DNA of 64,000 nucleotides. Source: Lepisosteus oculatus (taxonomy: Eukaryota > Chordata > Actinopteri > Semionotiformes > Lepisosteidae). Position numbers and translations under genes: made by a program. Below the pieces are notes generated by a model that saw nothing but the letters and a program-made list of their open reading frames with translations, searched no databases and was not told the DNA's origin. Below are positions 15,127 to 39,500 of this stretch, piece by piece (the stretch's first letter is position 1; every line of letters begins with the position of its first letter). Where the stretch lies: contig NC_090716.1 of the NCBI RefSeq assembly GCF_040954835.1, forward strand, positions 12,151,275-12,215,274. Reading direction: 5' to 3'.

Positions 15127-16387
15127 TTATAACACTTGGTAGATGGGGTTGGGGTCGTGGGCCAGCTGAGTGCAGTTGGTGGGGGACTGGACGGGCGCCC
15201 CGGCTTCACTCAAGATGGATCCCTCTCGGGGTGACGAGGGGCTGCCTTCGCCCCCGTCCTGCGCGGGCAGCGCCGGGCACGTCGAGGTGTCTGTTGAAAT
15301 GCGCTCCACGATGCTGGACAGACAATCCAAGCTGGAAATGACCGAGTTCTTACTAGTCCTGGAATCTGAAGATATAAGAAATAATTGTGACGTTGTGCTG
15401 CTAACGGAACTGATTTCACGGGATCTGAAATGTACTCATGCATAAACATCCTTCTGACTAAGTTCGTGCTTTACATATGTGTATACCTATATGCTGACAT
15501 GGTCATTCTTGAGACCAGCATTCCCGTTACACTTGCTAGAAGGCCACAATAAAACATCTCAACTAATGTCAGACGATACTGTATGATTCCCAAGCCTGCT
15601 ATCCCGTCCTTCTAAAGGAAAAACAAACAGCTGCAGCCGGATGGGTCTAGCCTGACACTTACCATTTGGAGTTTCGGAAAAGTAAGCGCTGTCATAACTG
15701 TTTCTTCTCCTCGAAGTGCATGTTGGGCCGCCGAAATCCATCTGGAAGAAAGACATTTCGAAATGTTCGGCTTGCGGTACAACGCACATGAATCGCATGA
15801 AGTTTACAGTCAAACCAACGCGCCACTAAGTTACGATGGCAAATCTCACTATGTTAAAATCATTAAAATCATCTCACCATTCCATCCGAGCAGTTGGACC
15901 GGGGGCTGGACGCGTCGGAGTCCCCGCTATAGTGCTCCAGTACTGGGTAGTAGTTTTCATCCTGACCTCGGAGTAGGGATTGTAGGGACTCAATGTAGCT
16001 AATGGCGTTTCTGAGAATTTCAACCTTGGGTAGCCTCTGGTTGGGGTTTGTGGATGTGCACCTCTTCAGGGTCTCGAACGCCTCGTTCACTTTGCTCAGC
16101 CGCCTCCTCTCCCTCATCGTGGCCGCTTTCCGGCGGTCGGCGTTGGTGGTCTTCCTCTTGCAGGCTTTGCAAGCCCAGAGCAGGCATCGGCCCGCCTGGT
16201 GGTGCCCGCTGGGAGCCCGAATGTGTTCGTCTTCGTTGTGATGGTGGTCGTCCGCCTTCAGCAAGCCCACGTGAACCAGCCTGGGGTCCAGGTCTTCGAA
16301 AAAGTGCATGTCGCTGGTGTTAAAGCACGGGTCATCGTAGAAGTCGTCAGCGCTGGTGATGGGAAAAGTGATATCCGATAACTCCAT
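15127..16387 (-). CDS. myod1: Myoblast determination protein MyoD (complete, 3 exons, 275 aa)
   Basis: MyoD is a nuclear bHLH activator that binds CANNTG E-boxes as a heterodimer with E-proteins and commits cells to skeletal muscle. Exon 1 is 16387-15878 (170 codons), exon 2 is 15741-15663 (79 nt) and exon 3 is 15365-15127. Introns are 136 and 297 nt, all GT-AG. The start is the first ATG ([10 protein letters not shown]); the open frame above it begins at a TTG. Visible domains: N-terminal acidic activation segment (1-50), His/Cys-rich region with WACKACKRK (63-79), bHLH about 84-139 with the myogenic Ala-Thr pair ([13 protein letters not shown], residues 89-90) and a perfect [16 protein letters not shown] loop/helix 2. 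C-terminal helix III ([18 protein letters not shown], about 204-221) is followed by the end YQVL. No defects were seen. It is convergent with tnnt3, and its 5' side faces the ferritin-like and second MRF genes. Confidence 0.98.
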
Positions 16388-16654: not shown

Positions 16655-16659
16655 AGGAC

Positions 16660-19600
16660 TTGCAGCTCTTGGGCGTATCTTGGCTTTCGGACACCTCTCT
16701 GCAGTGACCAATGAGCACGGAGAGAGGCAGGGCACGGGCGAGCCTCTTGGGAGGAGTTCGCTGTTCCCCTCTCCTCTCCGGTGTCATCCTGGAGAATGTT
16801 CAGGAAAGAGAAAACACCGCGGGTGATAAGGGGATCACGCACAACTTTTGAATTTTAGTAATAAAAACATCATTTTTATCATGTTTTAGGGAGCGCATTT
16901 TTGTTAACCATCTATTCAACTCACCCCCGAGAAAATAATACATAAAGCAGAATAGACCGCTGATGTGTTTGGATACACGAATTATTTTGCGACTCGCATA
17001 AGCTTCTGTATACTTGTTAAACTGGCCATTACGCCTTTTTATTGAAGGGTCTTTCAAAAAAATATTTTTCTACATTATCAAGTTTAAAAGTTCACAAACT
17101 AACCTTAGAAATGCTCAGGGATAATTTTTATTATTATTTGAAGCAAATCACTGAACAGCTTTTCTTTCTTATTGTCAGACCGGGTTTATCTCACTAACGG
17201 GTTTATTTTGATACTGGAAAACATGGACGTTTCGATGTTGTCCTTTATCGTTTTAGATGGTTTTCTTTTTTATTCTAATTTCAGCCTTTAACAGCTAGTT
17301 TTCTCAGAAGGGGGTAGTTTTTCACTTATTTGAAATGTTGATCTCACTCTCTCATTTATCGTCAAATAGGTTATATACAGTATCAACTTGCTGACTGGTT
17401 TAATCGTGAATGTTTTAACTCAAATGTTTTATTCGAAAAGTTTTTTAGAAAGTGTTCTCATTACCACAAGCACCCTTGGGTTATAAAATATGCTAAACGA
17501 CTACATTACTTCCTTTTAAATCGAAACCGTATTTTTTACAAGATTGATCATACATTTTTCACGGTGCCTTCTTATTTATAACTCTTTAGATTTAATTCTA
17601 ATAAGCGTGTCGTTCCTGAACGGTTCTTGAGGTTTTAAATTTCATAATAACATTCCATAAATAGTTGGATATTTAAACCATATTATATTATATTTTTATT
17701 AAAAGCTGAATTATTTTAATTCATTTTAACGAAGTTATTTCTGTATTATGTTTTATTGTGAAGAAAGATGCCGCATCACCAGATACAACAACCGTAGCCC
17801 TGAAGTTTCCGATGACAGCACCCTTCTGCTCTCAGGTAGTGAGTTTTATCATGCGCCACTAGATGGCAGTAAAGAGTCGAGGTAAAGCGAATAGATCGTT
17901 CCCACTTAACGCACATCTCAAGCCTACCTTATAGTATTTGTATATACGTATTAAAAAAAAAGTATCTGGAAAAGTACATTCGTCCCCAAAGTTTACTTGT
18001 TTTAGCACCATACACTGTCTCATTGAAAAACAGCGAGAGAAACCTACGTTATTTCAAAGGTCCTATTTTCATTTTAAATTTTACCACGATCCGATTTTTT
18101 TTTGTTGGCCTGTAAGAAAGTGCAAGGTTCCGTGATTAAACCAACAAAAAATCACCCTAAAAAGGAATATGTGCTTTATATTTCGTTAAAGGTAGCTTTA
18201 TTGTAGAATACTGTATCATCAAACATTAGAATGTAAATCGTGGTTAGCCAATTAGCTCATACACCATTCAGGGTACAAATCCATGAGTTAAATTGGGTTT
18301 AAGTTTCTTTTCCTGATTCTGTCAGGGTTCCCTTTGTTATGTACAGGTTTAAAAGCCAGGCAGGCAATTTACAGAATCCTAAAACAATGCAAGATCTCGG
18401 GTGTATCGCCACATCTTAACGAATGTACCAATGTATGTAGAACAATGTATTTTTTCGTTGTATTAATTTCCTTAGGAAATACACACCTTGAAGTCGTACA
18501 ATTCTATACATTTTTGGGTTCATTTCTTTACATATTACGTCTAGAAAAAATGTTAAACGATTTTATTGAAATAATAGAGCAATCATAAAATAATAATAAT
18601 AAAAGAGCAATCATAATAAGACAAAGTCTAACAGTTTATATATGAGTAAGGATTTCTTTTCATTGTGGGCATTTTTATTTCAGGACGAAAGACGGGGTTC
18701 CTAATATTCGGGTTAAATACGGAACAGCTTAGTTACAGTAAGTAGTTGTTTAGCATTAATAACCCAATAATTATCCAATCTACAATTGAAGAAAAAAATA
18801 CATGATCTACAAAGTTCTTTATCACAACTTTAAAACTTTACAGCGATTCCACAATACAAACACAATTCAGTAACATTTTGAAAAGGTTTAAATTTATCTG
18901 AAGCCGGTGAGCGTTTAATGTCGTGTAACGAATAACCGCTTGAAGGAATTTTAATCAAAACGTCGCTGCTTAATATTTCCTGGGACAATCATATTAATGC
19001 GTGTCGGGTGTTATTTTAAACAAAAGGCACCTGGTCATCTACAAATGTGCAATTAGATCTGTTTATTAGTGTTCGTGTTCGCCCATTTCTGGGAACGTAA
19101 GTGTAAGGAATTATTATTAATTAATAAGAGGTGGGAAATTTAATTAGAAAACAAGGAGAACTGTCTAGGTAGGGGCAGTCAACAACGTCTTCCGACTTAA
19201 ACGCGCGGAACCGGTATACAAACGGATATCGCAGTGAACAGAGGACAGGAAAGAGGGGTAGTTTGCTGTATACTGTAGTGCAGTCTCAAGTCCCATTGTT
19301 TGGCATCAAGTAGTACTTAAAGCACTTGATAACACTTATTGTAGTATTATTTTTTTAATTAACCCCTCTTTAATAGTTTAGCGCTTTGAAATTGTAATTA
19401 TTAGTAGTAATAACAGTTAGAATTCAGTGTAATCGGTTCTGCAGAGGAAATAAGGACTTTTAAACAAAAGATACAAACAAGCTCATTAACAATAAATTTA
19501 TCAGTACCACCTCTATGAATAAAGCAGTTTTATTATAATATTATTACACCCCAAAATGAATATTTTTAAAATGCGAATGAATAAAAGCTGTTGCGAGATT

Positions 19601-20220
19601 CTCGCAACCATTTATATGGTTTTACTAAAAAGCAATAACCCACTCGCTCGATGTCATTAACAGAGCCTGGATTAAGGAGCATTCGGATTATTTGATACTT
19701 TTTTATCACTATAATTGTGTTGAATGCAAGATTTAAGGAAAATCACATCTGACTTCAGTAAAACACGACAGTGTACCTAGTCAATATCTTTACGTCTACG
19801 GCAATAGAAGCCATACAGTATGCTCATGTTCTGTTAATGTTTATATCGCATTGTCAGTGAGCGAATAAAACCCATAAAGCTGTCTTCTGTTCTGAATACG
19901 CTTTGTAACATAAAAGCATTTAGAAAGACTAACATTTCACAGTTGTATCCAGTCTCTGATTGTTTTTTTTTTTACATATTTAAATAGATGTAATACTAGC
20001 TACTGCATTTAATCACCATTGCTTCATCAAAGACCCAAGCTTTCTTTCACGCGGTTGAACCTATGCAATATTTTTAGTCTTGGTCATCCTTTTCTATCTG
20101 TCCGTCATAATCCTACATACAAAAAAATCAACAGAAATTAATCTGTTTTAGGATTGCTTTTCAGTTTTCAGTTAGAACTAAAAATGACGTATTTGTTGGG
20201 CTATAAGTTAGTTGTTGATC
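16660..20220. other. myod1 upstream region, no gene recognised
   Basis: AT-rich, with no splice-supported coding sequence on either strand. The one motif that stands out is the CTCF-like site at 17856-17869. Proximal MyoD regulatory sequence is expected here from family knowledge but cannot be delimited without alignments. Confidence 0.5.
17856..17869 (+). promoter_or_regulatory. CTCF-like motif
   Basis: CCACTAGATGGCAG fits every position of the CTCF core CCASYAGRKGGCRS. It lies about 1.5 kb upstream of the myod1 ATG, between myod1 and the ferritin-like/second MRF genes. Motif only; occupancy is unknown. Confidence 0.5.
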
Positions 20221-20224
20221 CAAG

Positions 20225-20420
20225 AATTTCATTCACCCTTCTCTCAAAATAAGACGGAGTATCGGCTCCATCAACATAGCTGGGTAGTTTGTTCCATACC
20301 CCCACACCCCTTTGTCTAAAGGAGCGCTTCCTGCTCCCTGTTTTAGAAGTACTTAAACTCTTTCTGAAAAGAAAGTATGATTTTACAGGCTGTACCTGTA
20401 GATATAGGCTAGATATTTTT
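20225..20420. repeat. Probable interspersed repeat fragment
   Basis: 'ctgggtagtttgttccatac' then 'tctaaaggagcgcttcctgc' are wordings that recur in many fish genomes as part of a degraded repeat. Family not assigned. Confidence 0.4.
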
Positions 20421-20577
20421 CACTAAAAGTAGCTATTCTACCAGGTGTAACAAAGTATTCACCTTAAGTGGCAGTTTTCACACTCACAGCCTATTGACCT
20501 ACTAACAGCCTAATTAAATTCAATTTGCCATCCTATGGGAATTGTAAAGTTTGTCCCTAACATCAATATGCTAATTT

Positions 20578-20672
20578 TGTGTGTAATATGATCGGGACAT
20601 GCCCGTTGCTTGCCGGGATAGACTCCAGCTCCCCGTGACCCTGATGGCTAAGGAAGTGGGTGGATGATTAAG
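20578..20672 (+). repeat. L2-type LINE/SINE 3' end fragment
   Basis: 'cttgccgggatagactccag' then 'ctccccgtgaccctgatggc' and 'gggtggatgatta' form the typical 3' end of fish L2-related elements. Confidence 0.7.
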
Positions 20673-20679
20673 AAAGAGT

Positions 20680-22080
20680 CCGACGTTTTCCACTTCACAG
20701 TTTTGGCACAAAGGTTCTGGTCTAAAATCACCATATTGTGATAAACCTTGTTTTTTACCAAGAAGCCCATTGTCCTAGCTGCCCAGGATGAGCCGAGGGG
20801 GATGATCAGTGTTCTTGGGATAGGGGGTACCATGTGAAATTTAGACAGATGTTTTCAAATCTCTGAAAATCTGTTTAAAAACTTGAACATCATTTTCTTA
20901 ATCTCTCATTAAAGTGCAACAATTCAGTATTCTGAAGCTACTACTGTACTTTCAGATTTATCCCAGATAAAATACTATTCACTTCTTTCATGGGTATGAA
21001 ATGCTTTTATCCAAAACTAAACTTAAATGTTTGTGCTGGTAATATACGTTGCTTTATGTCTCCAACTCCTCTTCAGCCGTGTACTTATAGTAAATCTCCA
21101 TCTCCTTTACTCTAGTTAGTAGCATCAAGATACAAGAAGCTTCATACACACATAGGACTGTAAGTATGTGAATGATAGTATGGAAATAAATAAAGGTTAA
21201 AGCAAGATCCTACAACCACACCAGGTTTTAAAGTACTTTCATATCCTTTTTATTTTTTTTAAAAAGTGAAAGACAAACAAGACTTGAAAAGATGACCAAC
21301 TGTTTTCCTGTTCCAAACACAACTGTACCATTGTATCGTGCTCAGAGGTAGGAAACCTGCTTATTTGCAGATCAAACATTATAGTGTTTTAACTTACAAT
21401 AGTTTAATCCAGCCCTGTAAAATGAGGAATTCTTCCCCGATCAATAACAAAAATAATTTAAATGTTTGCTTTTTGCTCAAAAATGTGAGTGATAATGTTT
21501 GCATCAAAGGCAGAAAATGACAAAAATGCTTGAAACAGGAAAGAAATGAAAAGTTTTCCCTTCCACCTCTCACGCACCACAACCCACACACAACATGTGC
21601 TGTAAACTGTAGTTTTCAGAGCAGAAAACCTATATGAGTGTTACAAGTCAGAGAACATTTACTCAGTTGTTACAATTGGTATTGGTAGCTCATTGACCTG
21701 AGTATCTAGACTTTTATTAAAAGATTTCTTAAGTAATACGTACAAAAATATTTCTTAAAAGGAGCCAGGAATGTCCCCTGAAAGGGTTTCTTTGGTCAGG
21801 TTCCCTTCCATGTCGGAAAAGAATACGAACACTTGTTTTTTTTTTTTCAAAAGCTTATACTGAAATATCAACTCAATAAAATCAATTGGTTTTCACAAAG
21901 GAAAAGCCAAGAGTTATTTTAGAAAAGCTGACATTGAAGGTTGAACCAATTTGCAGGAACCGCTTAACACAGGATTAAAAACACACTGTTGAACTCCAGT
22001 TGTGCTGAACGTGCACACTTCTTACCTTTCCCAATGGGAACAGTGTCGACTGTCGAAGTGCTGGTGAACATGCAGTGGCC
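20680..22080. other. Intergenic, nothing recognised
   Basis: No coding exon or clear repeat. On the minus strand an AATAAA near 21711-21717 lies about 800 nt beyond the ferritin-like stop and could serve as its poly(A) signal, but nothing ties it to that transcript. Confidence 0.4.
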
Positions 22081-22085
22081 TTGGG

Positions 22086-22366
22086 CAGTGTTTCTCAACC
22101 TTTTCCGTCCCATAGCACACTTGCAAAAAGATAACGCGTTTGTGGCACACTGCCCCCTAACCTGCATGCACATACGTGTCACTGACCCAAGCACATCTCA
22201 GTGTTCAATCAGAGCTGGTCTAGAAGTACATCGGTACAATTCCTGCTCAGCTGCTCTCAGATATTCCGTTTCTTTAATCTTCATCAGACTTGAGAAACAT
22301 AATTTGCACCTCACAATGTTCCACACCTGTTAATGGCTGAAGGCAGCCCATCGTTGAGAAACCCTG
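22086..22366. mobile_element. Non-autonomous hAT-type element (281 bp)
   Basis: Terminal inverted repeats: CAGTGTTTCTCAAC at the left end and, reverse-complemented, CAGGGTTTCTCAAC at the right. They are flanked by a diverged 8-bp repeat (GCCTTGGG / CCCTAGGA). TIR sequence, length and 8-bp target size fit a hAT (Charlie/Tip100-like) MITE. No transposase remains. It lies just downstream of the ferritin-like gene. Confidence 0.75.
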
Positions 22367-22532
22367 CCCTAGGATACTGACATGGCTTAAAGGTTGTTGC
22401 CCTACAAAGTAAAGATGTTCTAAACTAACTGTTTATAGTCTAAACTAAGATGTTCACAAACTAGAAACAAAAGACTGAAGGCAAACAGAATTGTTAGGAA
22501 AGGGGTTTTAGGCGAGCAAGAGTTTGGAGAGT

Positions 22533-25500
22533 TCAGAGATTTGTCAGCTCTTTCTGGAGCTGGTCAATCAGGTACTCCCCGAAACCTGTTTCATCCTTAC
22601 AGCCCACCCTCCTGGCATTAGTCAGGAGGGCGCCCACCACTTCGATCTTGCCAATGGCTGGTGTGACAAAACGCTTCTTGACCACGCTGGCTGTGTGAGG
22701 GTCTCCATTTTGCTTGCTCTGCTGACAGAGCTCCGTCAGGATTCTGGCCACCTCCTTCCACTGTGCCAGCATCAGTTCCAGGGCCTGCAGAACGCTGCCC
22801 ACTGCCTCGCACCCCGGTTTCTGCCAGAGACAATGCAGAGCGCCAGTTTAGAGATTCATGTCGCATTAACTGGGAGCTCTCGAGGGGATGTTTTATTATA
22901 CTGAGCACAGTTCAGTGAACAAGATTTTGTTTTTGGCTTTATATATTCTAATTAGGGAACAGGCATTTAAATGTATTCTCTCCTTCCTGCTATTTCTAAA
23001 TCATTCTGCACAATAGTCATAAACAAGATTACATTCTAAAATAGAGAAACTGGCTCTATGCAGTGAATATAAAACCTATGTAATAAACTTATATGTAGTG
23101 CCCTTGAAAGCGATCTCAAAGTTATTCGGCTATAGTGTGTCATCTGAATGTTCTTTTGCAGTCGAATACTTCAAAGTGTTCTGACAACAAGGACAGAGCA
23201 CATTATTCTCAGATCTTAAGTCTTTAAAGGATAACAAGGTGTCTCAAATTGCTGATGACGGACTCTTGCTTTACCTCAGGATCAATTTAACATGAATTCT
23301 AACAGCAGGGGAAACAGACAATACACAGTGCTACAGCAAGAACTTACTGTACATCTGGCGGTACAATTAAAGTAACCGTCCTTCTGTACATGCATTCATC
23401 TCCCCAGTTCTCCAGAACTCAGATGTAATGTCAACTCTGACAAGTATTACCGCTATAACCCCTGAAAAGTTCATATTTACCCCCTTTTTTCTCTTCCTTT
23501 GACTTGAGTGATTTATTTAATCAAAGATGAGCTCAAACACTGCAGTTCAAAGTGCTGTATATGTTCTGTTTTTTTAAAACACTTGCATATTAACGTTTTT
23601 ATCGTTCATTTTATGCAAGTACATATTTAAAACTGCACCAGTTGACCTGGCTGTGTATGAGGAATCCTGACCATGCTATGGTACAGCAGCTGTAAGGGCC
23701 AGGCCCGTACCTGGATGTCTTTATTGCAGTACTGTCCTCCTCGCTCTCGCAGGTATTCAAGCAGAGACTCTGCTTCCTTCTGCTCCTGCTCAGCTTCCTG
23801 GTGGAAAAATGCTGCTATTCTTGGTAAAGCAATATCATCCCGTTCAAACAGTTTCGCCTGTCAGAAACAAAAAACAGCGATATTGATCGTGTTTCAAGTA
23901 GGTGGCTGTGTCAGCATGTGTAGGCTGCAAAGGAACAGGCAGCCGGTTTATTCCTGCTGAAAAGAGAAGAAAGGAAACGCAATGTTCTACAGGTGTGATA
24001 TTGATAATGTCAGCTTTCTCTATTCTGAAACAATAAACATCCTATAAATATGCTAAATTCAACTTTTTATTTGGACATTTAATAAGACAGTAACTTCTGT
24101 AGTGATTTCATGCACATAACCCACAAATATTTCTACAAAGCTATACAATATGATCAAAAACAAAATGCAATAACTCTTTATATTTATTTATTTTAAAAAA
24201 TAATATATTTATTTAGATATTCTCAATATACTTATTGCTGGACAGCCAGGGTCCTTCAATCTAAATGGAACTTGTTGATAATTTGTAATTGTTCTCCATG
24301 GTTTATGCTATATTCCATTTATTTTAGTATAAACATAATACCGTCTGTAATGTAGTCTATGCCTTCATTTTTATTGCATAAGGATGGGTACATCTCTGAA
24401 CATTTTCAGCAGAACACTGCTTATTTGACACTTGTAGTGAACACACTTTTTTTTTTTTAAGTGCAACAGGGAAGACCTGCCCCTGGAACATTTTAGCAAT
24501 TAAACACCAAGTTTACCAAAATTCCTAACGTTTACATCTGAAAATCCAGCATATGTATATGCTGACCCAACAGTTGTGTTTTTGAAGATAAATTATTTGT
24601 TTAAAAAGTGTTTATCAAAATCTAGAATTAACTCAAAGCAAAGAAAACTGGAATAAATCTTGCATGTTGGATGAAAAGCCCTCGATTCGATACTAGAACT
24701 AACGGACTGAAATACCAGCTGCTGGAAGATGGAAGGAACATTCGCTAAAAGTTTCATTTAATAACCCAGTATTAGATTAAGTGCAGCATAAGGTATGAGT
24801 GTGAAACAGAAGTGAAAAAAGTTCTCATCTCAGTCTGAAGGAAGCCCTTGTGAGCAGTATGATGAATGGTGATTCATCTGAGACTGGGAAAAACTCTGAG
24901 ATATTAGAAGTGATGTTGTATTGGGATGCCACAGTTTTCTAAAAGATAACATATTCTCTGGTGAAGTGGATGATTGTGGCCAAGTTCATTCCAGTGCTCT
25001 TACCCTTTTGTCTTTGAATATTAAGCCCAAAACCCTGTTAGTATTGTTACTGTGTTTTTTTGGGGGGTAGGTTTTAATTTTGTAACAGTTCTCTATTTCC
25101 TGTAACAACGTCTGCTGCATAGATATGCTACTATCCTGCAACACACGTTCTCTAGACTGTGGGTCTTTCTTGGAAGTGAAGGGCTGTGCAAAAGTTAGTT
25201 GTTATTTGTAAATTTATGATGGGCTATCGTGCCCTTTTTAGTGCAATTACAAATCATACTTCATTGTAAAAGTTTTGGGAGCGTGACTCCCAGAAAGTTT
25301 ACACAAAACATTGTGATTTACCGCAAATTAATCATACTTAATTAATACAATACTTAAAACTGTGGCATCCCAATAAAACATCACTTCTAATATCTCAGAG
25401 TTCTTCCCAGTGAGATTAAAACACCTGTACTTTTTTTTCTGGATTGCTTTTTTCATCATGTTTTTGAACTGTATGAAACATTTAAAAAAATGTATTAAAA

Positions 25501-25905
25501 TATACGAACAACTTAAAAAAGGTTACTTACAATACATTTATAAGGGTATATTTATAGTTTATAAGCAGAGCGCAGTACTGTTATAGATGAAGTGATAAAT
25601 GCATTGGCTTTGTAGTCTAATTGGTAAATGTGTAATAACTCAAACCTCAATACCTCTTTTTGATAAGGAACAGAGAGAGGCTCTCAGAATAAAATACATA
25701 CAGTATCGTTCACGAAGACCAGCTTGTTTCGCCTTACCAGGGCTTGAAGTCGATAAGCAACCGCCATCAGCACCGTTATAACGCCGCACAAACTTTCCTC
25801 AACTACCAAGGGAAAGTTGTGCTTCACCCGGGTCCCGGTGAGCGTCCGGTGGGCCGTGCAGACAGGCAAGGTTAGTTTGAGCCGTTTGCCTGCAGGTTCC
25901 GACAT
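22533..25905 (-). CDS. Ferritin-like protein, divergent (3 exons, 200 aa)
   Basis: Exons: 25905-25738 (56 codons), 23857-23711 (49 codons) and 22820-22533 (95 codons plus TGA), all phase 0 with GT-AG ends. The second exon has exactly the 147-nt size and borders of ferritin H exon 2 (FERDDIALPRIAAFFHQEAE, ending RGGQYCNKDIQ). The last begins KPGCEAVGSVLQALEL and ends in the E-helix-like GFGEYLIDQ, but exons 3 and 4 of ferritin H are fused here. Aligned by eye to H ferritin, the ferroxidase ligands E27, Y34, H65 and Q141 become L, L, E and A, while E62 and E107 persist. Iron oxidation is therefore probably lost. The N-terminus is extended by about 19 residues and contains PAGKRLKL. It may be a structural/regulatory ferritin subunit, possibly ferritoid-like. 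A TATA-like GATTATATACG lies near 26097-26107. Identity as a ferritin-fold gene is firm; orthology is not. Confidence 0.85.
23896..23990. repeat. Copy of the foldback-type dispersed element
   Basis: 'ggctgtgtcagcatgtgtag', 'gctgcaaaggaaca', 'ggtttattcctgctgaaaag' match the outer part of the 10890-11085 repeat in the same orientation. It sits in an intron of the ferritin-like gene. Confidence 0.65.
24883..25411. mobile_element. MITE with about 56-bp inverted repeats
   Basis: The left arm 24883-24938 (ACTGGGAAAAACTCTGAGAT ... GGGATGCCACAGTTTT) and right arm about 25356-25411 are reverse complements with about two mismatches. The interior of some 420 bp shows no coding frame. Arm length and absence of a gene fit a MITE or foldback element. 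No target duplication could be fixed. It lies in an intron of the ferritin-like gene. Confidence 0.7.
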
Positions 25906-26109
25906 TTTATCAAAACTGTCGCTTAAAAATAAAATCGCGGAAAACGGAATCTACTGCAGATGATTTCACTGGAGCATGACGACCGAGTATTTGGCGGAAT
26001 GTTGTCATGTAGCAATCCCGGTAATTTTATAGGTTGTGAAAGAAAAAAAGTGGAGCAACTGCCTGCTCCGCAGTTAAATTTAGACTCTACAAGAAGGCGT
26101 ATATAATCC

Positions 26110-27390
26110 AGTTCTCTTCCCGTTCAGCTACTTTGTTCATCCGGTGCATTTGAGCTACAGGTTTTGAACTTTCCAAATTAGGTTACACATCAACGATCAA
26201 AAAGTTATGATAAAACTGGACGTTTGTAATGCAGTTGTGACTGTTGATTGTGGCGTACTGACACATAACGTGTTACTGCACACCTGAATTATAGACGTCA
26301 CCAAAAGCGCACCCCCTGTGCAGTAATCTTTTTAAACACTGTTTATGCACTTTGTCCGCGTATGTGCACGTACCTCGCCGCTTTTTTACCTAGAAAAAAA
26401 AACACTTTTCACACTCACTGTAAGGTCATTCATTTTAGGACGAGAGCTTCCACATATAATATTTATCGGGGCCGAATATCCTGTACTATAAAACTATAAT
26501 ACTGGTGACTTTTTCAATCTGCATCGTAAATGTCCTGATAGTAGATGATCTTAACTCGTGCAATGAGTGAAAAGCATACATTAGCACACATACAAACTTG
26601 TTTTTCCCCCCCAATTACCTTGGAAAAAATAACATGAATCGTTATCGTTAAATTATTTATTTTAAACAACCATACATACCTACAAGTGGCAAAGTATGGG
26701 CTTTAGGTTTCCAGCACAAGTTAAATTTACTCAAGTATTACAAACTGACATAAGGTTTCTGCAACTTTTGTAAGGACGACTATATAAGGTAGAAAAAGTC
26801 ACTGACAGCAAAACGTATATTGATAAGAAATAATATTTTCTATCTCCGAGGGAAATGACAACTTTAATAGCTTGGTACTATTGTAAAGGCGATCTGTTCA
26901 GAGAGAATGTGAAGAGATCATAGTATTCATTTATTATGCAAATATTTGGTATACAGTATATGACTTTACTAATGTACACATTTAACACATTATACAGTAA
27001 CTTAGAACAACATATTCATTGACCAAGTTGTAATTACACTATATCTGTGTGAAGATCTGTGCTTTGAATTGAATACATTGAGAAAACAAAGTTTAAACTG
27101 ATTGAGAATTGATGAGAAAAAAAAAACAACAACAGACATTGCAGTTACATCAGAGTGCAGTTGCCAAACAGAACAGTTCTTTGGTCATATGAGTGTTTTG
27201 GGGGAATGATTCAGTACTCATTTGTAATATTGAAACCGCACGTTCATTTTTTCCCTCTGGATCATAGAAGTAAACCATTTTACATCTGAGATGAGCAAAG
27301 CGGTGCTCAACTTTGATTGAACCATGCGGTAACTGAAGTATTTCCCAGCGATAAGCATCTGTTTTTCCAGCTCCAATAGACACGTGTTAC
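26110..27390. other. Interval between ferritin-like gene and second MRF
   Basis: Mostly AT-rich, with no assigned feature. An open frame on the minus strand (27383-27150) reads continuously but has no splice support and resembles no known domain. On the minus strand an AATAAA near 26935 could terminate the second MRF transcript. Confidence 0.4.
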
Positions 27391-27394
27391 GTTA

Positions 27395-27526
27395 TTATTG
27401 CCTGGTGTGTATTGTGAAGTCCTGAGTGTGAAAGACGGTGCTCTTTTGCCACGTGCCACTTGTCCAGAGCCTTCCCCCCGTCTTCCTGCTTTCCTCTGTG
27501 GATAACACACTGGAGGACGGCCAGTC
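27395..27526 (-). CDS. Candidate 3' exon of the second MRF gene
   Basis: After a TGCTCGTCCGCAG acceptor the frame opens as DWPSSSVLSTEESRK and runs 43 codons to TAA at 27395-27397. Phase 0 matches the donor of the bHLH exon (28550), which would give a 190-aa protein after a 1024-nt intron. DWPSSSVLS weakly recalls the QWPSVSDHS segment that opens MYF6 after its first exon. No helix III (SLxSIVDSI-like) is seen. The alternative is that the bHLH exon simply reads on to TAG at 28413. Confidence 0.3.
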   Translation of the reverse strand, partial: DWPSSSVLSTEESRKTGGRLWTSGTWQKSTVFHTQDFTIHTRQ

Positions 27527-28550
27527 CTGCGGACGAGCAAAAAGGTCAGGTCCAGACACTTGCCCGACAACATTACCAGCAAACTGCACATACGTCTCTT
27601 AGTGCTTTTGGAGTTTCTGCATAGTGAATGAAAATGTATCATCAGGCTAGTCTTGTAGCAAACGTTTTTTTTTTCTCAGCATATGACAAATTCTGAATCT
27701 TACATGAACATCATCTAGAAAAAGACACTCGGACAGTTAGAAAAGCACTGAATAGGAGATCATATGTCTTTCCCTTCTGCACCTTGTCTTTGTCCTCAGA
27801 GTGAGCAGATGTAGCGTCTTGTCTTGACTCTAGTATGGAACACTGTGGTGGTGGGACTGGTCAGCACAGCACTCAGGCTCATAGAAAACGAAAACAGAAA
27901 AGAGGAGAGAGGTTTGGACCAGCTAGCTTTGCAGGCTGAATTGTCATATTTAGTATAGGAAATTAAGCCTAGTAAACTGTTTAGTCTAAGCAATAGTGTA
28001 TCTCATAAATAAATACAAATGATCATTTTAAGTCCTGCTGTGGTATATAATCATAAATCACAGCAAATCTACATAGTAGAATTGTTTAAACTGCAGCATA
28101 AGCTAACAAAGAGCATAGGAACATACCAAAATCTGAAGCATCAAATGCAAAGCTTTATATCAGGAAAACCAAAAGAAAAAAATATATAGCAGTTATCTAC
28201 AGTAAATCAGTTGTAGTGCATCATCATTCATTGAAGTACTTTTTACCATTGCATTTTAGGGATAGTACAGATTTAACTGAGTATATATGTGAATTCCTTT
28301 ACTTGTCGCATTAAGATATGCTAAGTTGTATAAGATATACAATCTTTATAATTGATGTACTTATTTTTGGATTTTAAGTTTGTTTAGATGTTTTTTTTTT
28401 CTGAAAACAGGGCTAGCTGTCAAAAAGAGAGAGTGCATTACATCTGGGGGGGAGTTTAGAAAGTGTCCGAAATGAAAACTGCAAGGTCATCATATTTTCT
28501 TGTCTGTTTGGGATAGCTGGAAGAAAAACAATAATAAAGAGATTCCCTAC

Positions 28551-28991
28551 TTGAGGGCCGCAGTGGCAGGTGGCTATTCTGCTGCCGGGCACAGCTCCCT
28601 GTTCCCTCGCAGCTCCCAGGAGAGACTGTAGCCTCATTATGTGCTGTATGGCGTGGCGAAGAATCTCCACCTTGGACAGCCTCCGTTTGGGGTTTGGCAC
28701 CGTCTTTTGCTTCAGAGCTTCGAAAGCCTCGTTGACCCTTTTCAGCCTCTTCCTCTCCCTCAGAGTGGCAGCCCTCCTGCGGTCTGTCTGGGAGGGCCTT
28801 CTCTTATAGACCCCGCAGGCCCACACCACGCACTGCCTCTCTGAGAGTCCGGGCCGGGGAGAGGGGCCAATGTGTTCTTCTGTTGGACTGTTCATTCTAG
28901 AGCAGACCTGGGGTTCTGCCTCGTCATCCCCACTGTCTTTGCTGGTCGTTACATGCCGCTCATTAGCGCAGACAAAATGGGGATGCTGCAT
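28551..28991 (-). CDS. Second myogenic regulatory factor: Myf6/myogenin-like bHLH, exon 1 (147 codons)
   Basis: MRF-family DNA-binding protein, distinct from MyoD. Start: first in-frame ATG (28989-28991, context AAAATGC); the frame above begins at GTG. Seen in order: [15 protein letters not shown] (35-49), matching the EEHVLAPPGL segment of Myf6; a His/Cys-type motif [14 protein letters not shown] (52-65) with Trp and WAC kept but the second CxxC cysteine changed to Tyr; and bHLH about 71-125. The basic region [13 protein letters not shown] keeps the myogenic Ala-Thr. Helix 1 [16 protein letters not shown] is Myf6/MyoG type. Loop/helix 2 is [24 protein letters not shown]. The aromatic N-terminal activation segment of Myf6 is absent. 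There is no stop or frameshift in 147 codons. Exon end at donor CAA|GTAGGG, near where human MYF6 exon 1 ends. It is co-oriented with myod1 and about 12.6 kb upstream of it, mirroring MYF6-MYF5. MRF identity is firm; orthology and the 3' end are not. Confidence 0.88.
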
Positions 28992-29201
28992 TTTCCCCTC
29001 CAGTGAAATGCAGGTTCTGGAACCAGCTGTCACTGTGCAGAGATCTTTTGGGAGACGGTGCTTCTACTTCATTGCTGTTTTTTTTTATGTGTGGCTCTGC
29101 CTCCCCCCCCCACCCCCACCCCCCATCTTTGTTACTGTTGTGGAAAAGATTTCGATCTTAAATGCCTTTACAAAAGCAGTGGCAAAATTGAACTCACAGC
29201 T

Positions 29202-29211
29202 TTATATATAG
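29202..29211 (-). promoter_or_regulatory. TATA box / MEF2-consensus site of the second MRF gene
   Basis: The minus strand reads CTATATATAA, continuing AGC. It is at once a strong TATA box and a full match to the MEF2 consensus YTAWWWWTAR, 211 nt upstream of the ATG. MEF2 sites near the TATA box are a known feature of myogenin and Mrf4 promoters. E-boxes flank it: CAAGTG at 29231-29236 upstream and CAGCTG at 29024-29029 in the expected 5'UTR. Confidence 0.65.
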
Positions 29212-29219
29212 AAGCTTGT

Positions 29220-32200
29220 GAAACTCAATACAAGTGTCCTTTTACTTCAAACTGGTTTTTATTGGCACATTTCCATCTACTGGATGGGCATCCAGCTCAC
29301 TGTACAACATAAGTCCACAGCTACAGAGGAATCTACTACTGAACAACTGTTGGGGATTTGCGTTCCTATGGACTTTGTGGTGTCCTTTAATAAATTCTTT
29401 GTTGGGGGTTTCTTACGTCTTTCATTGTGGCAAGTGTTGCTCAGGGGACGTGAATATGTTCATCGGATGCTGCTTATCATGTTCTTACCATGGATTTTGA
29501 AGCACCCTGTGAAAAAATGGTGTGCTCTTTGAACTTCTGTGTTGCTGTATTATGTTTCTTTCTGGTTTCCTAGCAACCTGTTTGTGACGTTGGTCCTGGA
29601 GAGTCCATGGAAGATGCCACGGCAGAGGCCGCCAACATAGCCCCATCCCATCGGAGTGGAGTCAGAACACAAATGTCCCAGATCATTTTCAGAGTGTTTC
29701 AGAGTGTTTACAATCACAACATGGGGAGGGACCATAGGTCTTCTTCAGGGATTTTAACAGGTAGAAGTTACCTCTTTTTGTCAGGTCTCTGTACTTAGTA
29801 CAGATAGTAAAGTTTGACGAGCAAGCTTGGGATCGTGTAACATAATGAGCACAGCAAAGACGTAATTGTGAACATCACGGTCTATTATATTTTATTTTTT
29901 ACTCCCAAAATTCCATTCTGTCCATATAGTCTGTGGTTGAGTGTGCCAGTTAAACCCCCTGATAATTTGGTCCTCTTTAAATGTCTGTGCTAAAACGTTT
30001 CAGAGAACAGTAACTAATTTGTATTTTCAATAGATGTGTTTTTTTCATTTCTTGAGATCACTGTAGGAAGTAACCACAGACATGTAACATTGCACTATTA
30101 AATTGATGTGGTAGGTTAATGACTTAAATTCTTCTTCAATTAAGGCTTAATGCTTAATTGCTTATTTGGCTTTGATCACAGCTAGAAGCAGGAAGTGTTC
30201 CTTTATTAAACGGATATAAACAAAACCTGCCTGGAGCAAAGCAGTGTGCAGGCCTTTTAATGCAAAAGGAGCAGACAAAACAATGGAGTCCGATGACCCA
30301 AACAAAATCACCTTTTCAGCCAAACAGCTCATGGCCTGGGGTCCTCATGTAGTTCAGACATTTCACTGAACCGCTCAGTCATGTGATCTGCAGGGACATG
30401 GATTTGGATTTGTAACACCCCCTTTGCATAGTCCTGTAACTCAGAAATGGCAATCCATCATGTGTTGTTCCTCAAAGATCATTCATATGGGTTTATTTGA
30501 TGAGTTCTGAAAATTTCAAATGTAGTTAGAAGTAAAAAAAACTCATTCATTAGTCGCAGCTCTTAGCTGTACCTTTCTGAGAGAGAAATCTTGAACGGAT
30601 GTGTAAGAGCTCTGCACATGACGTGTGGAGGAGAGACCTACTGGCAAAGTGGCAACCTTGGTGGACATGGGATGTCATTCTTCACACCTGCTTCAGAGCG
30701 TAACGACAGCAAACTGCCTTAACCCTAGCCACTACAACACCAGCATTGTGCTGTGACACAGGCTGGGCAGAGATTACATTACACACTGATTAGAGCTTCA
30801 GTTACAGCCCCTTAGCGTGGACAATGGGGGATCAGAGCAGTGGACATGAGAGTTTTAACATGCCTTGTGCCTGAGGAGCAAAAGGGATTACTAATGAAAC
30901 AGCCAATTGCAAGCCATCCAAGAGCCACTTAACTGTTCTGACTGAAAATCCCAGCTTTTAGTTTGAACTGCTCAGTGTTGCAGTGACAGTCGCCTTCATT
31001 GGGATAAACACTGGCTTTAAGTCTTCTGCATACTTAGTTATGCAGATTTGTATCACCGTGTCTGTTCAAAAGTTAATGTCTGAACTGAGTCTTTGTAGGT
31101 TTATAGAAGCAACACAATTTATTGACAAATATGCATGGACATGAGCTCCTGATTTCCATTATCTTACAAATGGAAGTGATTAGTGTGAGGTATACTGAAG
31201 TATTGTTATTGTATTAATACATCCTGAACTGAATAATTAAATAAGAAGTACAGAGAGACGTAAAACACATATGCTGTATTTGACTATTTGCATTAGTACC
31301 TCAATTTTAAATTTTACAGCAACACGTGACTGGCCATCTTGTGCCTGTTGCTTGCTGGGTTGCTCCTCTGCAACCCCAAATTGGAAGAAGTGGTTAGAAA
31401 AGTTAGTTGGAGTTCCAATACATTGACATGCTTGGGTCTAGGAAACACTGGTATACTATGTCAGGTCATGTGCTTGTTACTGACATTTCTCTTCTGACTA
31501 AGACTTGCTGGGATCTAGATATGAACAGTCACTCAAGTCCGCCTCATCCAAGTCCTGCGTTGCTTGGCCATTGGCCATTTGAGAACTATTCTGACAGGAC
31601 CTCCCCACGTGTTGGGCAGTGATACGGCCTAGATTTGAACTGGCAGCTCCAGGGGCACAGGACACATGCTGATTTTTATCTTTGTTGTTTACTCTTCTAT
31701 TTTTAGACAATAGGGATGAAATATTTTGAGATTGCATTTGTTAGATTTATTTTTCTTTATAATGCAAAACAAATATTTGATAATGAGGTGTTAGGTGGGT
31801 GAGTCCCATAACAACTTGCCATAGCAATTTCAATAACCAGTGTCTCTTATGTGCTAAAATAAGGATCTAATTGTGGTAAATCATTACAGCCATGTGGCTA
31901 TTTTTTGAAACCGTTAAGCTCTTCCCGCAGAGATAATTCAGTTTTTAGCCCTTTGTTAATGCTCGGTATGCCAGTCTTGGAATGCTCCACAGTAATTTTA
32001 ATTCCTGTCTAGTGCCGCCATATGTATCTAAATATAATAAAGGTATTGTGTTTTATGCATGTAGCGATTTATATATTACTGATAATGTGAATGTTGATAA
32101 GAAGGATTGTGACACTATGTTTTACTACCTTAGATAATCACCATTGTATAAAAATGGGAGTCCAGTAACATATGTCAGTGTCCATCTTCCATACAGAAAC

Positions 32201-35200
32201 GACAAAAGTGAAAGGTTCATTAGGCAAACAGACAGCCTTACTCAGTATTTACTATAGAAAAGCCTATCTGGTGATTAAATTGGCAACAGATTGGTGGAAA
32301 TAAATTAAAACAAGATTGGACGTATGATTGTCTAGACTAGATTAAAATTTTTGCATCAGTGCATGATAAGAAATAACATAGGAGACACTTATTTTCTTCA
32401 GCAAAAAAAATCTGCTTTACATTTTTAACTAATTCTTCAAACTGTATTTAAGTGAATTAAATAAAATATATTTGAATGAGAAAAATCTTTTTTGCCTAAC
32501 TACATCACCCTTGGAACATTTTTGATCGCTTTAAAAAATGCTTTTGGAGAAAACATGCTTTCAAAGCTCCCATACCTGTCAGTTTGTTGGACTCTGATGG
32601 GATTTTGGCACCAGTTCCTTGGCAATGGGAGATGTGGGAATCTGCCCACAATACCCTGGCTTCCTCCAAGAAATGACTCGATGAGCCGCTAACTTCCAAA
32701 TGTGGCTACATGGCCACCTCTCATTTGTACTCTTTCTTATGTTTTTATGTTTATAATTTAAATGGTTTCTCTGTGGTCAGGGTTGTCTGTAGTCTTAGTG
32801 AGGAAGGCCAATGCGTGTGTGGATGATTGTATACTGCACGGAAACATAAACTATTGTGTACTGTTACTTAAGCAAAAGTTTGTAGGGCTGTAACCTCTGT
32901 TTTAAATCGTATCCCTGCAATGCAACAATGAAAGGTGTGGTATTTCAGCATATTGTAAGAGATTAAAGCATGCACATCTGTTTCCCTCTGCAGCTCTCAG
33001 CCTTTCATTCAAGCCATCTAACTCCCAAGTGTTGAAGTCCACTCCACTCAGTACTGTTTGACAAACCTAAATTAGGCTAAAAGCATAGATTCTTTGAAAA
33101 CTGAAACTAGAACCCAAGCTAGTGGAAGTGATTTATAGGGTAAAAAAAGGAACATTTCGTGTCGGAATAAAGTTTTCAGTACCTTCCCTATCTTCCTAGT
33201 GTTTTTGAAGAGAAAATGCATTATCGCCCATTCAGAAAGTGTATTTTTGGTTGTTTAATTGAAAGGGAGGCGGAGAAAAACAATCTTTTCTGGGTACTCG
33301 CCAAATTATTAAAGTTCTCATTCATCAGCAGATCCTTTTTAATGACAATGTTGAGAAGGCTGCCTGTGGTTGAAAGTGCAGCTGGGAAAGAGATCAATAG
33401 GGCTTTGCTGTTACCGAGGCCAACAGCTGTTTAATGGTGATATTCTGTAATGTCATCAGCAGACCTGAACTCAGCTCAGTGCCTTGCTAATTGTACTCAA
33501 AATGAGAAAAGAGAATTCATTATCAGAGCTAAATGGGATTTTATTCTTTTTTCTAGTTTCGTTAAATGCATATCAATAAAATTTTGCTGCTGGGTTCTGC
33601 TTTGCTTGATTGGCTTTCTTTGGAATGTGGAATCTGAGGGTTTCCTCAGAAGTTTTAGTCAGGGTTTTGTGCTGAAAGCCAAACAGGCCGCACTCTCCTT
33701 GTGAAAGCATGACAAATAAACAGAATGCTTCAAAAATTAAAGAACAATTTAACTTCAAAGATCAATTTGCTCCTCTCTGTTTCAAATCTGGGAATTCAGT
33801 TTATGTAATAAAAAAAGGAAATGTTTTTTTAATCCGTTTCAGCAGCTTTAAGAGCTTATCCATTTTAAATTTACAGTATTTTACCTACAGTAACAACTTT
33901 ACATATACATGGTAATGGGCCTTGTGTTGTGTTGAAATGCTTACATTGGTATCTTGGTTTAACCTGTGATTGAAGAAGAGTTTCCTAATGGATTATTTTA
34001 ATTTATAACTGAAACCTGTGTGTCCCAGAAATAATTAGAAATGTATAAGTGACATAATGCACTTTGAGACGAATCAAAGATTTACCTTCTCACAATGTAA
34101 GTGAGATTTGTCTTTTTGGAATAAAATTACAGCATTAACTTGTTTTGCTTCATGTATCATTTCCTTAGCTGCAAACACAACAAAAGTAATCATCTCACAA
34201 TGTTATAAATATATTTGAACCCATATAGTCCTTTGAAGAAGAGCACATTTCCTCAGATGGGTTTTGAAATGCTGCTGTGCATCACTATTAAGGCTGACAG
34301 TATGTCTAATATTTTAGACTCGTTTGAAATTCTAACAATAATGGCGAGCAAATCAGCAGCATGAAATCAGCGAGTGATTTTCACTGATTTTGTTTAGTGT
34401 TGTTTTGACCATGAAGTTTTTGTTGTAGGGGTCACTAGTGCCACTAAACCTCCAGTGCACAGTAAGTCGTACGTGCAGACGGGGATTGTTTGGAATCTAG
34501 TTGTGCCTGAAATTGCCTGGAGGCTCCTGGGAATTCCTTTCTGCCCTTGGCTTTGGAATGGCTTAGGGTAAAGCATCTGGCGAGCAATCACCTTCAGGGC
34601 CCAGCCAAGTTCAACAGCATCAGGCTGGGGTCAGCGGCAGACATGTGTGGGTTTGGTGTATCAGAATAAAAGAAAATCTTGTTAAAAGGTGAGGACAGAA
34701 GACATCCAGTTCTCAAACTCCTTGTCAAGATGTACCTGGTGTAAGTTGAAAAACAAAGCTGTATTTTCAAGTAGGAAGGAAAAATAGAGACGTGTTATGT
34801 GAAAAATAGTTTAATACTGTACATGTAGAACTTTATTTAGATCTAAACATTATGCAAGATCTATGTTCTCTACGTAAACAGAAATGTAGAATTCTGTCTG
34901 TACTTAAAGAAGTCTGACATATGCTAGCAATGAATATTGAGCTATTTTGTCCTTTTTAAACTGATTCTGATTGCAATTCATCTGCAATACTTATCTGCTT
35001 TGATTAGTAAATTACATGTTCAGAATTATTAAAAAAGAAGACGTGATTTTCTTATGATGAATTATTAGGAGGTGTGAGAGTGACGTTCTCTTAAATACTT
35101 TTAAGTGAGGCTTTGTTTTATGAGGTACACAATGTTTTTTATGATTTTAGGGGGAGAACGGTTGTGTGTGTGTGGGAGGGGGTATTGACGTTTTTAAACA

Positions 35201-36450
35201 GAGAACTAATGTAGTGAGTATACCAGAATATTGTCTGGTAAAAGTTTTAGGTTTACAAGGCAGCACAAATCCTTAGACAAGAAAAAAACAGAGCACAAAC
35301 CTCAAGAAAATCACATGGAAAGTGGACTAGAATAACAATCTATACATATATGCGTGGTAGACTGCATTTTATAGGATTGAACAAATTGGAATATCAGACC
35401 CCAGTAAAACTCTAAGGAGGCAGAGGAGACTTCCTTGGGAGCATAAAATAATTTAAAGGCCAATGTAATTCTATGAGATGCATGGATGAAACCAAACACT
35501 CCTTAGACAGCGCACTCTCAGCAGTGGTGGTTGTTTTAGAGAAATGTGGGTGCACTGTATTGCTGTGATCCAGCCCACCCCATCTTCATGTGCTCCACCT
35601 GAATAACTAACGCTGAGCCATAGATCAGAGGAGGGCATTCCTCTGTGACAAGGCCCTGCAGCCGAGAGGACACAGGCCACCACTGCCCCTCATTGCCTCC
35701 CGTGTAAACACCTACTTTGAAGAGGAGTCCTACAACAACATGGGAACAGCCGAAAAAAGGCCACCCAGACACAGCACACAGAGTGCCATTAGCACTAAAT
35801 ATGTCTCAAGTTTATTTTGCTTTCAATGTGGGGTTCTGGTTTGTGCACGTAATTGCTCTTGTGTCTCTTCTTTCCACTCTAAGGCATTAATAGCTTTATA
35901 AGAATGCAGTAATTGAAGATTAAAGGTAGGTAGAGGAAAAATGGCTATGCAAAACCTATAGAGACCATAGCTATGTAGTCCCTTAATTAATGTGTTATTT
36001 AAACTTATACATGATAGTAATTTGGTTCATGAAGTCGAAGTAATTCATTTTAATTAATTTTCTTTTCTTACATTTAAATGTAATGAATATTCAGAATATT
36101 AATTTTAATATGCTATATAATAATGCCATTAATTCTGATACTTTTCTTTCTCTAGACCAATAGCTTCAACACTGTACCTCTCCACATCTCAGTCCTTTCC
36201 TTTATAACTTCATTACACTTTGGCACCCATTGTCTTCAAATGCACTTTCTTACATGATCTGTGCTAAGGTTACATGCACATCTAAACTTAAAACATGCCT
36301 CTTTTATAGATGTGGATGAGGTCTTTCTGAAAAAGTCATTGCGTTCGTTGAACCTTGTATGGCTACGGTATGTCACCTCTCACGTAGAACCAATGTCAGC
36401 TTTGGAAATAAATCAAGAAATCATTGTGAGAGCTACAAATGTTTATTTCA
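29220..36450. other. Upstream desert, part 1: no gene, candidate regulatory blocks
   Basis: Open frames here are short and lack splice or family support. Two non-repetitive, low-CpG blocks dense in transcription-factor-like words stand out (30115-30295 and 33195-33560; see findings). No RNA gene was recognised. Confidence 0.5.
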
Positions 36451-36454
36451 TGCT

Positions 36455-36578
36455 GTCACAACCGAAGAAGGCTCCACAGCCGAAACATAGTGTTTCTTTT
36501 CTACTCTTTTCAGCATGGAATAAACCTTTACTCGTTCTTTTGCAGCCTACGCATGCTGGCGACGCTACCTAGTTGGAC
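36455..36578. repeat. Copy of the foldback-type dispersed element (reverse orientation)
   Basis: 'gaagaaggctccacagccga', 'tcttttcagcatggaataaa', 'tgcagcctacgcatgctggc' match the elements at 10890-11085 and 23896-23990 in the opposite orientation. Small open frames across it are not genes. Confidence 0.75.
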
Positions 36579-36579
36579 T

Positions 36580-39500
36580 GCTGTTGTTAGAGTTATACTA
36601 CCCATTACTCTACAGATTAAATGATGTTAAGCAGAGAATGATCATACTTTCTGTGTGGTCTTGAATGCCATGCCCCCTTTCTCCACACTCTTCAGTGGAA
36701 GCAGCGTCTCCAACTGGAAAAAAAATATCAGACTTTCTTAACTCTTTATGGCCTGAATTTGTTACATGAAAAATCAAGTTATTATATATTGTAGGCCATT
36801 AGTGATATATTGTATACTCTTTGGGAGATGAACTCTGGCCAGTGTTACAGCTCAGTTCTGCGGTCTGTCTTTGTGTGCTGAAAAACTTTCCTTCCTATTC
36901 CCAGATTCAGAATTCATAGACTTTTCTACTGGTGGGACTTTCAAAGAGTTAACAGTGTGTGCATATTTATATCATTTATATTTAAATCATTTAGGGCTGC
37001 CAGTTCATGCTATGCATTGTATTGTGCACTGATCTCTATTCATCAATTGCCATTTGTTGCTTTGTGTCTGCACTAATCTATAAAGCTTGTTAAGGGAATT
37101 ATCTTAAGGAAATTACTTAGTAGGCTTTACTTTCAGCCATGAGGTTTACTGAAAGCAGTTGTGAGCTGTATCAATCAAACCTTACCTTTTCCCCTCAATG
37201 TATCTGCTTTTTTGTTAAACTGTAAGGATTGCTTAGCATTAATTCAGGCATTTTAGTATTTGATTGTGTGCCATTTTTCAAATTGTTTTGTGTAACACAG
37301 AGACATTAAGGAACTTGAATTGCATGTATGTTTTAAGATGTATTGTATACAGATTTATATTGGCTTACCAGAAGATGTAACACCTACTAAGGTTTAGTCT
37401 TACAAACCATGTTTTTTTTCTGGTGGATGAGAAGGTGCATTAGCCTTCATTTTGAAATGACACAGCTGATGGTAAGTAGTTGTCTGTACTTTTTGGGTGC
37501 TTGCCTTTGATCTTCCCCTGCCACCAGTGAAAATATCCCAGGCCAAGGCATATGGAACACCCACCAACATAACAAATGACAACAGGACATTAACAGACTG
37601 GGAGAAAGAGCAGTCTGTCCCCAGGAGCAGACAGGATCAGCAGGTGTGAAGGGAACACAGTGGCCAAATATAGCTCAGGTGGCCAAAGCCAGGGGTGGCA
37701 GGTAGCCACAGCCTCTATCTTTCTTGGGTGGTAGAAAGAGCTCCTTTCTTTTTCGTACTTTTGTGGTGGGTGGTCCAATTGTTACTCTTCCTACAAATGG
37801 CAAAAGGCGGCAGCATCTTGTTTTACATGTTGACAAATATCAACAACCAGTGAAGTCCTACTGATGCATCGTCACCACCCTGACTGCATCCATTCAGTCT
37901 AGTAACAGTGATCTGATTCACTCTCTCTTTCGTGCTCAAAGCGAACTTTCCAGAGCTGAATGTCAAAGTACCAATTACATATCCTATCACAAAAAGCTAG
38001 TTTTAGTATTCACATTGTTATATAGCAAGTACTGTACAAGTCTTTAGAACTGCTGAACACGTTGCTGTTTGCTTTGATTTGAAGGGATTTTTATTTTTTA
38101 CATTATCTTTCATTATGTACAGTAGAAGCTTTAAATTGTGTTCCTATTTTTTGGGGAGTTATTAGGATGAATCATCAAATTGCTGAGTCCAACACTACAG
38201 TTTATATACTCAAAAGCATAACGAACAAATGGTATGAACACAAATGAAGAACAATATGTCACATTATTGTTTAATTAGCATTTTCTTAGTTTAGAGTCTG
38301 TGCATTACAAGTATATGTATTGCATAACATTTACTTTTTTCCTAAATTATTAATAAAATAATTCAGTCTTTTAAAAACTAAACTTAAACAACCATTTTTA
38401 ATACTCTGTGTTCTCCAGTTTAAAACGGAGTACTACAGCTCGGTTGATTTTAAGTTGTACTTAGATTGTTTGAAATTTGTGAGATGAGTGACATTTTGCA
38501 TCCAGAATTGTATTTAAAAAATAGTATCCAAACTGCACTAAATATTCATTCAATGCATTATGAATACTACCTGGTAGTACAGGGTAGCTGTTACCTGAAG
38601 ATAAGAAATACAGTATGCCATTTTACACAACTGCTGTGTTTGAGGATGGAGCAGTTAAATAAAGCCATCAAAAGGAGACCAAGAAGACTGTAAAGATTTG
38701 AAAAGGGTGAAGTTGTATAGCTAGAGTATACTGTATGGTTGGGTGTCTTTGAGCCTTCATATGGTAACCATTTCTAAAGTTGTCTGTACCATTCATTTGG
38801 ACAGATTAATTTGTTTTGAGAACATTACAAGTGATGCAGGATTTAACAGAAAATCCAGTCAGAAGATCAACAGTAAACACATGCAATACATTTATTTTTT
38901 CTAGCTGAACGACACAAATTTACTGCAATCTAGTGATATGGAAGCAGTTGCTGATATTGAGCACGGAACCACCATTTCGAATTCTGAAACCATTGTCATC
39001 ACTCATCATCTTTCCTACCAAAACATTTGATACTCTCAGCATTGTAGTCAATAATGAGCATCTTCAGAGAGCTGCTGGGGATATGTATAACTCAATATGT
39101 CCCGACATCTTTTTCCCAGCCCAAATATGAAGCCCAAAATGCTAGCTAGCTCAAAAATGATAAAATCCTTTTATGTCTTGTGTTTTTTAAATGTCTCATT
39201 CTATTGCTTGCAAGCACCCTTTCCTTTTGCAGCAACACTTCATTGAGTGTTTTGCACTATTTTGCATTCCCTGCCAGATAGAATACTGGTCTTTTACTAC
39301 TGGACTGTCTAGCATGTTTTAGCTCTTTGCATCTCTGAATGCGTTCACTCCAGGATCAGCATTTCAAAGTTCATATGGGGTTCACAAATGGACGGAAACA
39401 ATGGGCGCACAACAGGCCTGTCTCTCTCTGCCAAGGCATGTACAGTATCACAGTGGGGGGAAATGTGTTGTTGTGGAGGGGGATTAAGAAGAAAAGTGAA

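Follow-up and report, generated by a model that had tools for sequence, protein, structure and literature searches.

The exon at positions 28551 to 28991 on the minus strand of the window, the whole 64,000-nucleotide stretch of Lepisosteus oculatus DNA analyzed here, almost certainly belongs to the gene Myf7. Taking identity, place and type together, it is very probably exon 1 of Myf7, a gene of the myogenic regulatory factor (MRF) type lying beside MyoD. This gene is already known: Aase-Remedios, Coll-Llado and Ferrier (Mol Biol Evol 2020, PMC7530620) reported it from spotted gar, sterlet and coelacanth and gave it the name Myf7. A preliminary description of the stretch had presented a fifth MRF as new, and that novelty is not borne out. 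In the published account, Myf7 and MyoD flank a ferritin-like gene, with Myf7 on the upstream side at a distance of 10 kb in gar and 32 kb in coelacanth (PMC7530620). Its authors class it as Myog/Myf6-type, infer from it an ancestral two-gene MRF state, and, with Myf7 absent from tetrapods and teleosts, infer losses in three lineages (PMC7530620). Our gene matches by description and position: it is upstream of MyoD (12.6 kb here), a ferritin-like gene stands between the two, and its residues are mostly of Myog/Myf6 type.

The exon lies in a stop-to-stop frame (29063-28413, minus) that contains one uninterrupted MRF-type bHLH. It runs for 147 codons from an ATG at 28991, above which there is an in-frame stop, to a phase-0 splice donor, CAA/GTAGGG, directly after base 28551 (donor at 28550); the exon ends given in the preliminary description are exactly this donor and this ATG, and the gene strand, left unstated there, is minus. 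Scored with a donor weight table, it ranked top of the six GTs between 28665 and 28413, at 1.5, compared with 2.4-6.1 for the donors of the sister MRF genes. The bHLH itself (28617..28784, minus) matched Pfam HLH with E 4.4e-15. Among solved structures, the exon was nearest to MyoD and Myf5 (E 5e-18 to 5e-16), with the bHLH matching PDB entries 1mdy (MyoD, E 4.9e-18) and 7z5k (Myf5, E 2.2e-16), whereas Twist gave 2.4e-5. The Pfam Myogenic Basic model matched over positions 35-86 of its 86 at 22.4 bits, below the curated cut-off of 25 that serves as its detection threshold, and the four sister genes scored 65.6 to 111.8 bits, all above it. The classic basic-region code of MRFs is A-T-K; the Ala-Thr pair is present in Myf7, and at the Lys it has Arg. 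The claim of an intact MRF-type bHLH exon stands for exon 1, which is open throughout; exons 2 and 3 were not recognized.

We searched the 1.2 Gb assembly, in which the window sits on a 17.4 Mb contig, with the Myf7 exon (at least 13 matches) and with MyoD (at least 19 matches). Both searches returned the identical five MRF-grade loci and then dropped to other bHLH genes (at least 85 bits vs at most 38). With the Myf7 exon as query, the other four MRFs scored 85-108 bits and the next locus 37.9 bits. Identities over 84-104 aligned amino acids were 57% to Myf6 (E 2.3e-28), 57% to MyoG, 53% to MyoD and 50% to Myf5; that to Myf6, over 96 aa, was the highest among the genome's own MRFs. The exon thus differs from MyoD, as had been proposed. 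Myf7 and MyoD are on contig C21, Myf6 and Myf5 on C7, and MyoG on C5. Since MyoD, Myf5, Myf6 and MyoG have one locus apiece in the genome searched, Myf7 is a fifth MRF, as the preliminary description had claimed. The same genome holds an MRF-like bHLH stretch at C3:64084603-64084899 (39% identity to Myf7, E 7.5e-7) with one in-frame TGA within the match; this is probably a member of a different bHLH family, with the match running past the end of an exon.

Measured between start codons, Myf7 and myod1 are 12,604 bp apart on the minus strand, with Myf7 upstream, in line with the approximately 12.6 kb given in the preliminary description. Myf6 and Myf5 of this genome keep the same order and orientation, with Myf6 upstream and 10,432 bp between the start codons, so the two clusters mirror each other; the MYF6-upstream-of-MYF5 arrangement that had been cited as the usual vertebrate state is thereby seen here as well. 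Exon 1 of myod1, from start to splice donor, occupies 15878..16387 (minus; ATG at 16387) and matches Pfam Basic (89.1 bits), HLH and Myf5. The open frame holding its last exon, with helix III (LSSIVERI), is at 15130..15435 (minus); our helix III model found it with E 7.9e-11 when MyoD itself was among the model's four rows, and with E 2.7e-5 when MyoD was held out.

Two ferritin-like exons stand between Myf7 and MyoD on the minus strand. The internal exon (23711..23848) matched Pfam PF00210 at 27.7 bits (cut-off 24.5) and human FTH1 at 37% identity (E 0.003); the last exon (22560..22823) matched FTH1 by tblastn at 32% (E 2e-10) and PF00210 at 23.9 bits, just below 24.5. The tblastn search with FTH1 did not find the first exon. 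At 32-37% identity to FTH1, the ferritin-like gene (22560-23848) is far diverged.

The coelacanth and gar orthologues adjoin the same ferritin-like gene (PMC7530620), which places the origin of Myf7 before the bony-fish ancestor. Some non-teleost bony fishes still carry Myf7 next to MyoD, and mammals and zebrafish are without it. The idea that the gene is a remnant of an ancestral two-gene arrangement, lost in tetrapods and teleosts, agrees with the published account (PMC7530620), with the ferritin-like gene in the window and with the like-ordered Myf6-Myf5 pair. Orthologues at the same position in other lineages, which the preliminary description had listed as a check, are published for spotted gar, sterlet and coelacanth (PMC7530620). 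The published argument that vertebrate MRFs derive from a pair of clustered genes, not a single one, already present before the genome duplications rests on Myf7.

We compared residues across 12 MRF rows, four from this genome and eight from human and zebrafish. At the nine columns in which the early genes MyoD and Myf5 differ from the late genes MyoG and Myf6, Myf7 was late at six, early at one and neither at two; at the 11 columns separating Myf6 from MyoG, it was Myf6-like at five, MyoG-like at two and neither at four. With the genome's own Myf6 (MRF4) it also shares the EEH...PGL segment and KTVPNP before the loop, and each is the upstream partner of an early-type MRF. A maximum likelihood tree of 13 rows (Myf7 plus the 12) put Myf7 on the late side with support 99/100, on a very long end branch (3.69), and in the free tree it joined the Myf6 rows with support 38/76. 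Of nine placements considered, these two were already in the free tree, and the other seven were compared with it by the AU test with single-test p-values. Four were not rejected, namely Myf7 with the early group (p 0.46), as a duplicate of Myf6 from the same genome (0.39), with the MyoG rows (0.38) and with the MyoD rows (0.097); duplicates of the own MyoG (0.025), Myf5 (0.026) and MyoD (0.043) were rejected at 0.05. On the proposed Myf6/MyoG type, the diagnostic columns lean late (6 to 1, with two neither), and the tree supports the late side weakly, the early placement being unrejected. This tree does not fix the place of Myf7, so the case for an ancient gene comes from the published orthologues, such as that of coelacanth.

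A core-promoter block common to Myf7 and its own-genome relative Myf6 lies at 29191..29232 (minus) and holds CTATATATAA, a MEF2/TATA-type element at 29202-29211, which is at -220 in Myf7 and -115 in Myf6. We compared 600 bp upstream of the ATG among the five MRF genes by best local alignment (ten pairs, single-test), with first-order Markov copies, not strict shuffles, as the randomized controls. Myf7-Myf6, with a score of 35, was the only pair of the ten above all 300 randomized copies; Myf6-MyoG came next, with 6/300 copies as good. In a larger set, 1/1,500 randomized copies reached 35. When the Myf6 upstream sequence was slid over the window, the Myf7 promoter outscored all other chunks among 424, with 35 against 33 for the runner-up elsewhere; with the last 200 bp of that sequence, a segment chosen after the first result, it scored 35 vs 27. 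With the core masked, the Myf7 site ranked first of 208 TATA/MEF2-like sites, at 31 vs 28 for the next, in a tie with an overlapping Myf7 site. The MEF2 site by itself was dropped as evidence (26 such sites in the window vs 14.7 expected), and a pattern built from the Myf7 site, which had a single match in the window, proves nothing. The CACCTG E-box touching the Myf6 element is CACAAG in Myf7, whose upstream region shows E-box patterns elsewhere, CACTTG at -245 and CAGCTG at -38. In the MyoG promoter, the known core combines a TATA box with a Mef2 site and an E-box (PMC3395204). The statistics are modest, and we read the shared block as a putative homologous late-MRF promoter.

The protein is more changed than its sisters. 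Of 48 columns invariant in the 12 other MRFs, within a 77-column His/Cys-bHLH stretch, Myf7 keeps 36 and changes 12. Against the four own genes only, it keeps 37/50, compared with 50 of 52-54 for each own gene when held out. In the His/Cys region the His and one Cys are among the changed residues; further changes include the Pro of the loop, where LPK has become LSK, the Lys at the junction, replaced by Arg, and the Tyr and Glu of helix 2. The C..WAC core is retained. Six of the columns invariant across the 12 rows are changed in the bHLH proper. Differences between Myf7 and the own Myf6 at codon positions 1, 2 and 3 number 19, 16 and 37 of 77. Third positions differ most, so the pattern is as expected under selection on the protein; these counts sum both branches since the split and cannot date an end of constraint.

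The own Myf6 has MMDLFETNAYFF, a helix III exon and the His/Cys region in full, whereas in Myf7 the His/Cys region is reduced and neither a MMDLFETNAYFF-type motif nor helix III was recognized. No FETNxYFF-type N-terminus was recognized in 28801-45000. The best N-terminal-motif match (33186-33157; 10 residues, E 0.027, 80%) was taken as chance. All four sister genes carry a helix III exon (e.g. LSSIVERL), and a model built from three of them ranked the fourth as top match in 4/4 trials. Across the 64 kb, the four-sister model recognized the helix III of MyoD alone; its second match (E 0.27, in a frame from 23286, minus, between the ferritin-like exons) was taken as chance. Exons 2 and 3 of Myf7 were not found by reading the three minus-strand frames of 24000-29100 or by a motif scan of 14500-29100. 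A tblastn search of 16484-40000 with the sisters' last exons gave a best E of 0.074 (plus strand) and a best minus-strand E of 0.51. The published MRF alignment took in 19 helix III residues (PMC7530620). Because Myf7 is more diverged than the genes used as controls, and exons 2 and 3 were not located, a diverged helix III in Myf7 is possible.

Several of these observations could also be explained by decay, in which a once-working Myf7 was stripped of the N-terminal motif and the last exons within this lineage, leaving only exon 1. The identity of the gene as Myf7 would be unaffected. The lack of a recognized N-terminal motif in 28801-45000, the absence of a recognizable helix III although the held-out control succeeded every time, the weak donor and the very long branch all fit such a relic. 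However, exon 1 is open from end to end, the bHLH proper departs from the other MRFs at just six of their invariant columns with Ala-Thr retained, and the promoter block is still there. The codon-position differences likewise speak of protein constraint, albeit of a kind whose end is undatable. We consider decay unlikely.

A more recent origin has also to be weighed, namely that the species' Myf6 was duplicated within this lineage and the copy came to lie next to MyoD and then changed rapidly. The preliminary description had held that nesting as a recent duplicate of the species' own Myf6 would count against its reading. Our tree leaves that outcome unrejected (p 0.39), and Myf6 is both the best own-genome match and the gene sharing the promoter block. 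Against it, published coelacanth and gar orthologues occupy the same place next to the same ferritin-like neighbor (PMC7530620), and identity to the own Myf6 is just 57%, which together make a local duplication very improbable. The sub-threshold Basic score would suit a bHLH gene of another family, such as musculin or twist, that merely resembles an MRF. That identity was rejected by the structure matches, in which MyoD and Myf5 had E-values about 11 to 13 orders of magnitude better than Twist, and by the gap in bit score between the other four MRFs and the next own-genome locus; we give it practically no weight.

As a true Myf7, the gene most likely encodes a late-type, E-box-binding muscle factor, judging from its sequence, and a late-type role in muscle is probable. 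In differentiating muscle it would be switched on by MEF2 and MRFs through the Myf6-like promoter, a timing suggested by the promoter likeness and the late-type residues; the authors who named Myf7 also suggest muscle expression in the differentiation phase (PMC7530620). Because it has a bHLH, its protein is predicted to pair with E-proteins and, in the manner of a late-type MRF, to bind CANNTG sites in muscle genes. It might activate more weakly or more selectively than Myf6 does, or temper its sister MRFs, since the late-MRF N-terminal motif is lacking and helix III was not found; we regard reduced or tempering activity as possible but short of an even chance. A more specific version is doubtful and offered tentatively: a stripped-down MRF that has kept the Myf6-type promoter and the E-box/E-protein bHLH, has shed the activation motif and helix III, and would moderate its four sisters rather than act as a fifth activator.

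Helix III of MyoD is described as serving chromatin access (PMC7530293). In the account of Ciona MRF in PMC6589888, the protein functions when either helix III or the His/Cys region is absent, and losing both kills activity. Isoform 1 of Ciona Mrf resembles our picture of Myf7 in being an MRF without helix III, but it is a splice form of a helix III-bearing gene and is described as myogenic (PMC6589888). A restraining role would not be strange for a late MRF, because MRF4 is described as repressing MEF2 activity in adult muscle (PMC4976255). If the missing activation parts of Myf7 are real, they offer a definite, cheap test of its role. With a copy of Myf7 and its promoter in hand, it can be asked why some lineages kept the gene and three, by the published inference, lost it.

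Other features were seen in the window. Four pieces of troponin T exons lie at 755-2222 on the plus strand (62-89% identity to TNNT3; one piece matching Pfam Troponin at 25.6 bits, cut-off 26.2), about 13 kb beyond the 3' end of myod1 and on the other strand. An open frame at 20419-20204 (minus) has a VWNKLPSYV-type stretch, which we take to resemble the tail of a LINE reverse transcriptase; the Pfam search gave no LINE reverse transcriptase match there. Between the ferritin-like gene and Myf7 there is a 56-nt inverted repeat (24883-24938 and 25356-25411; 96% complementary, 417 nt apart), which looks like a small hairpin transposon.
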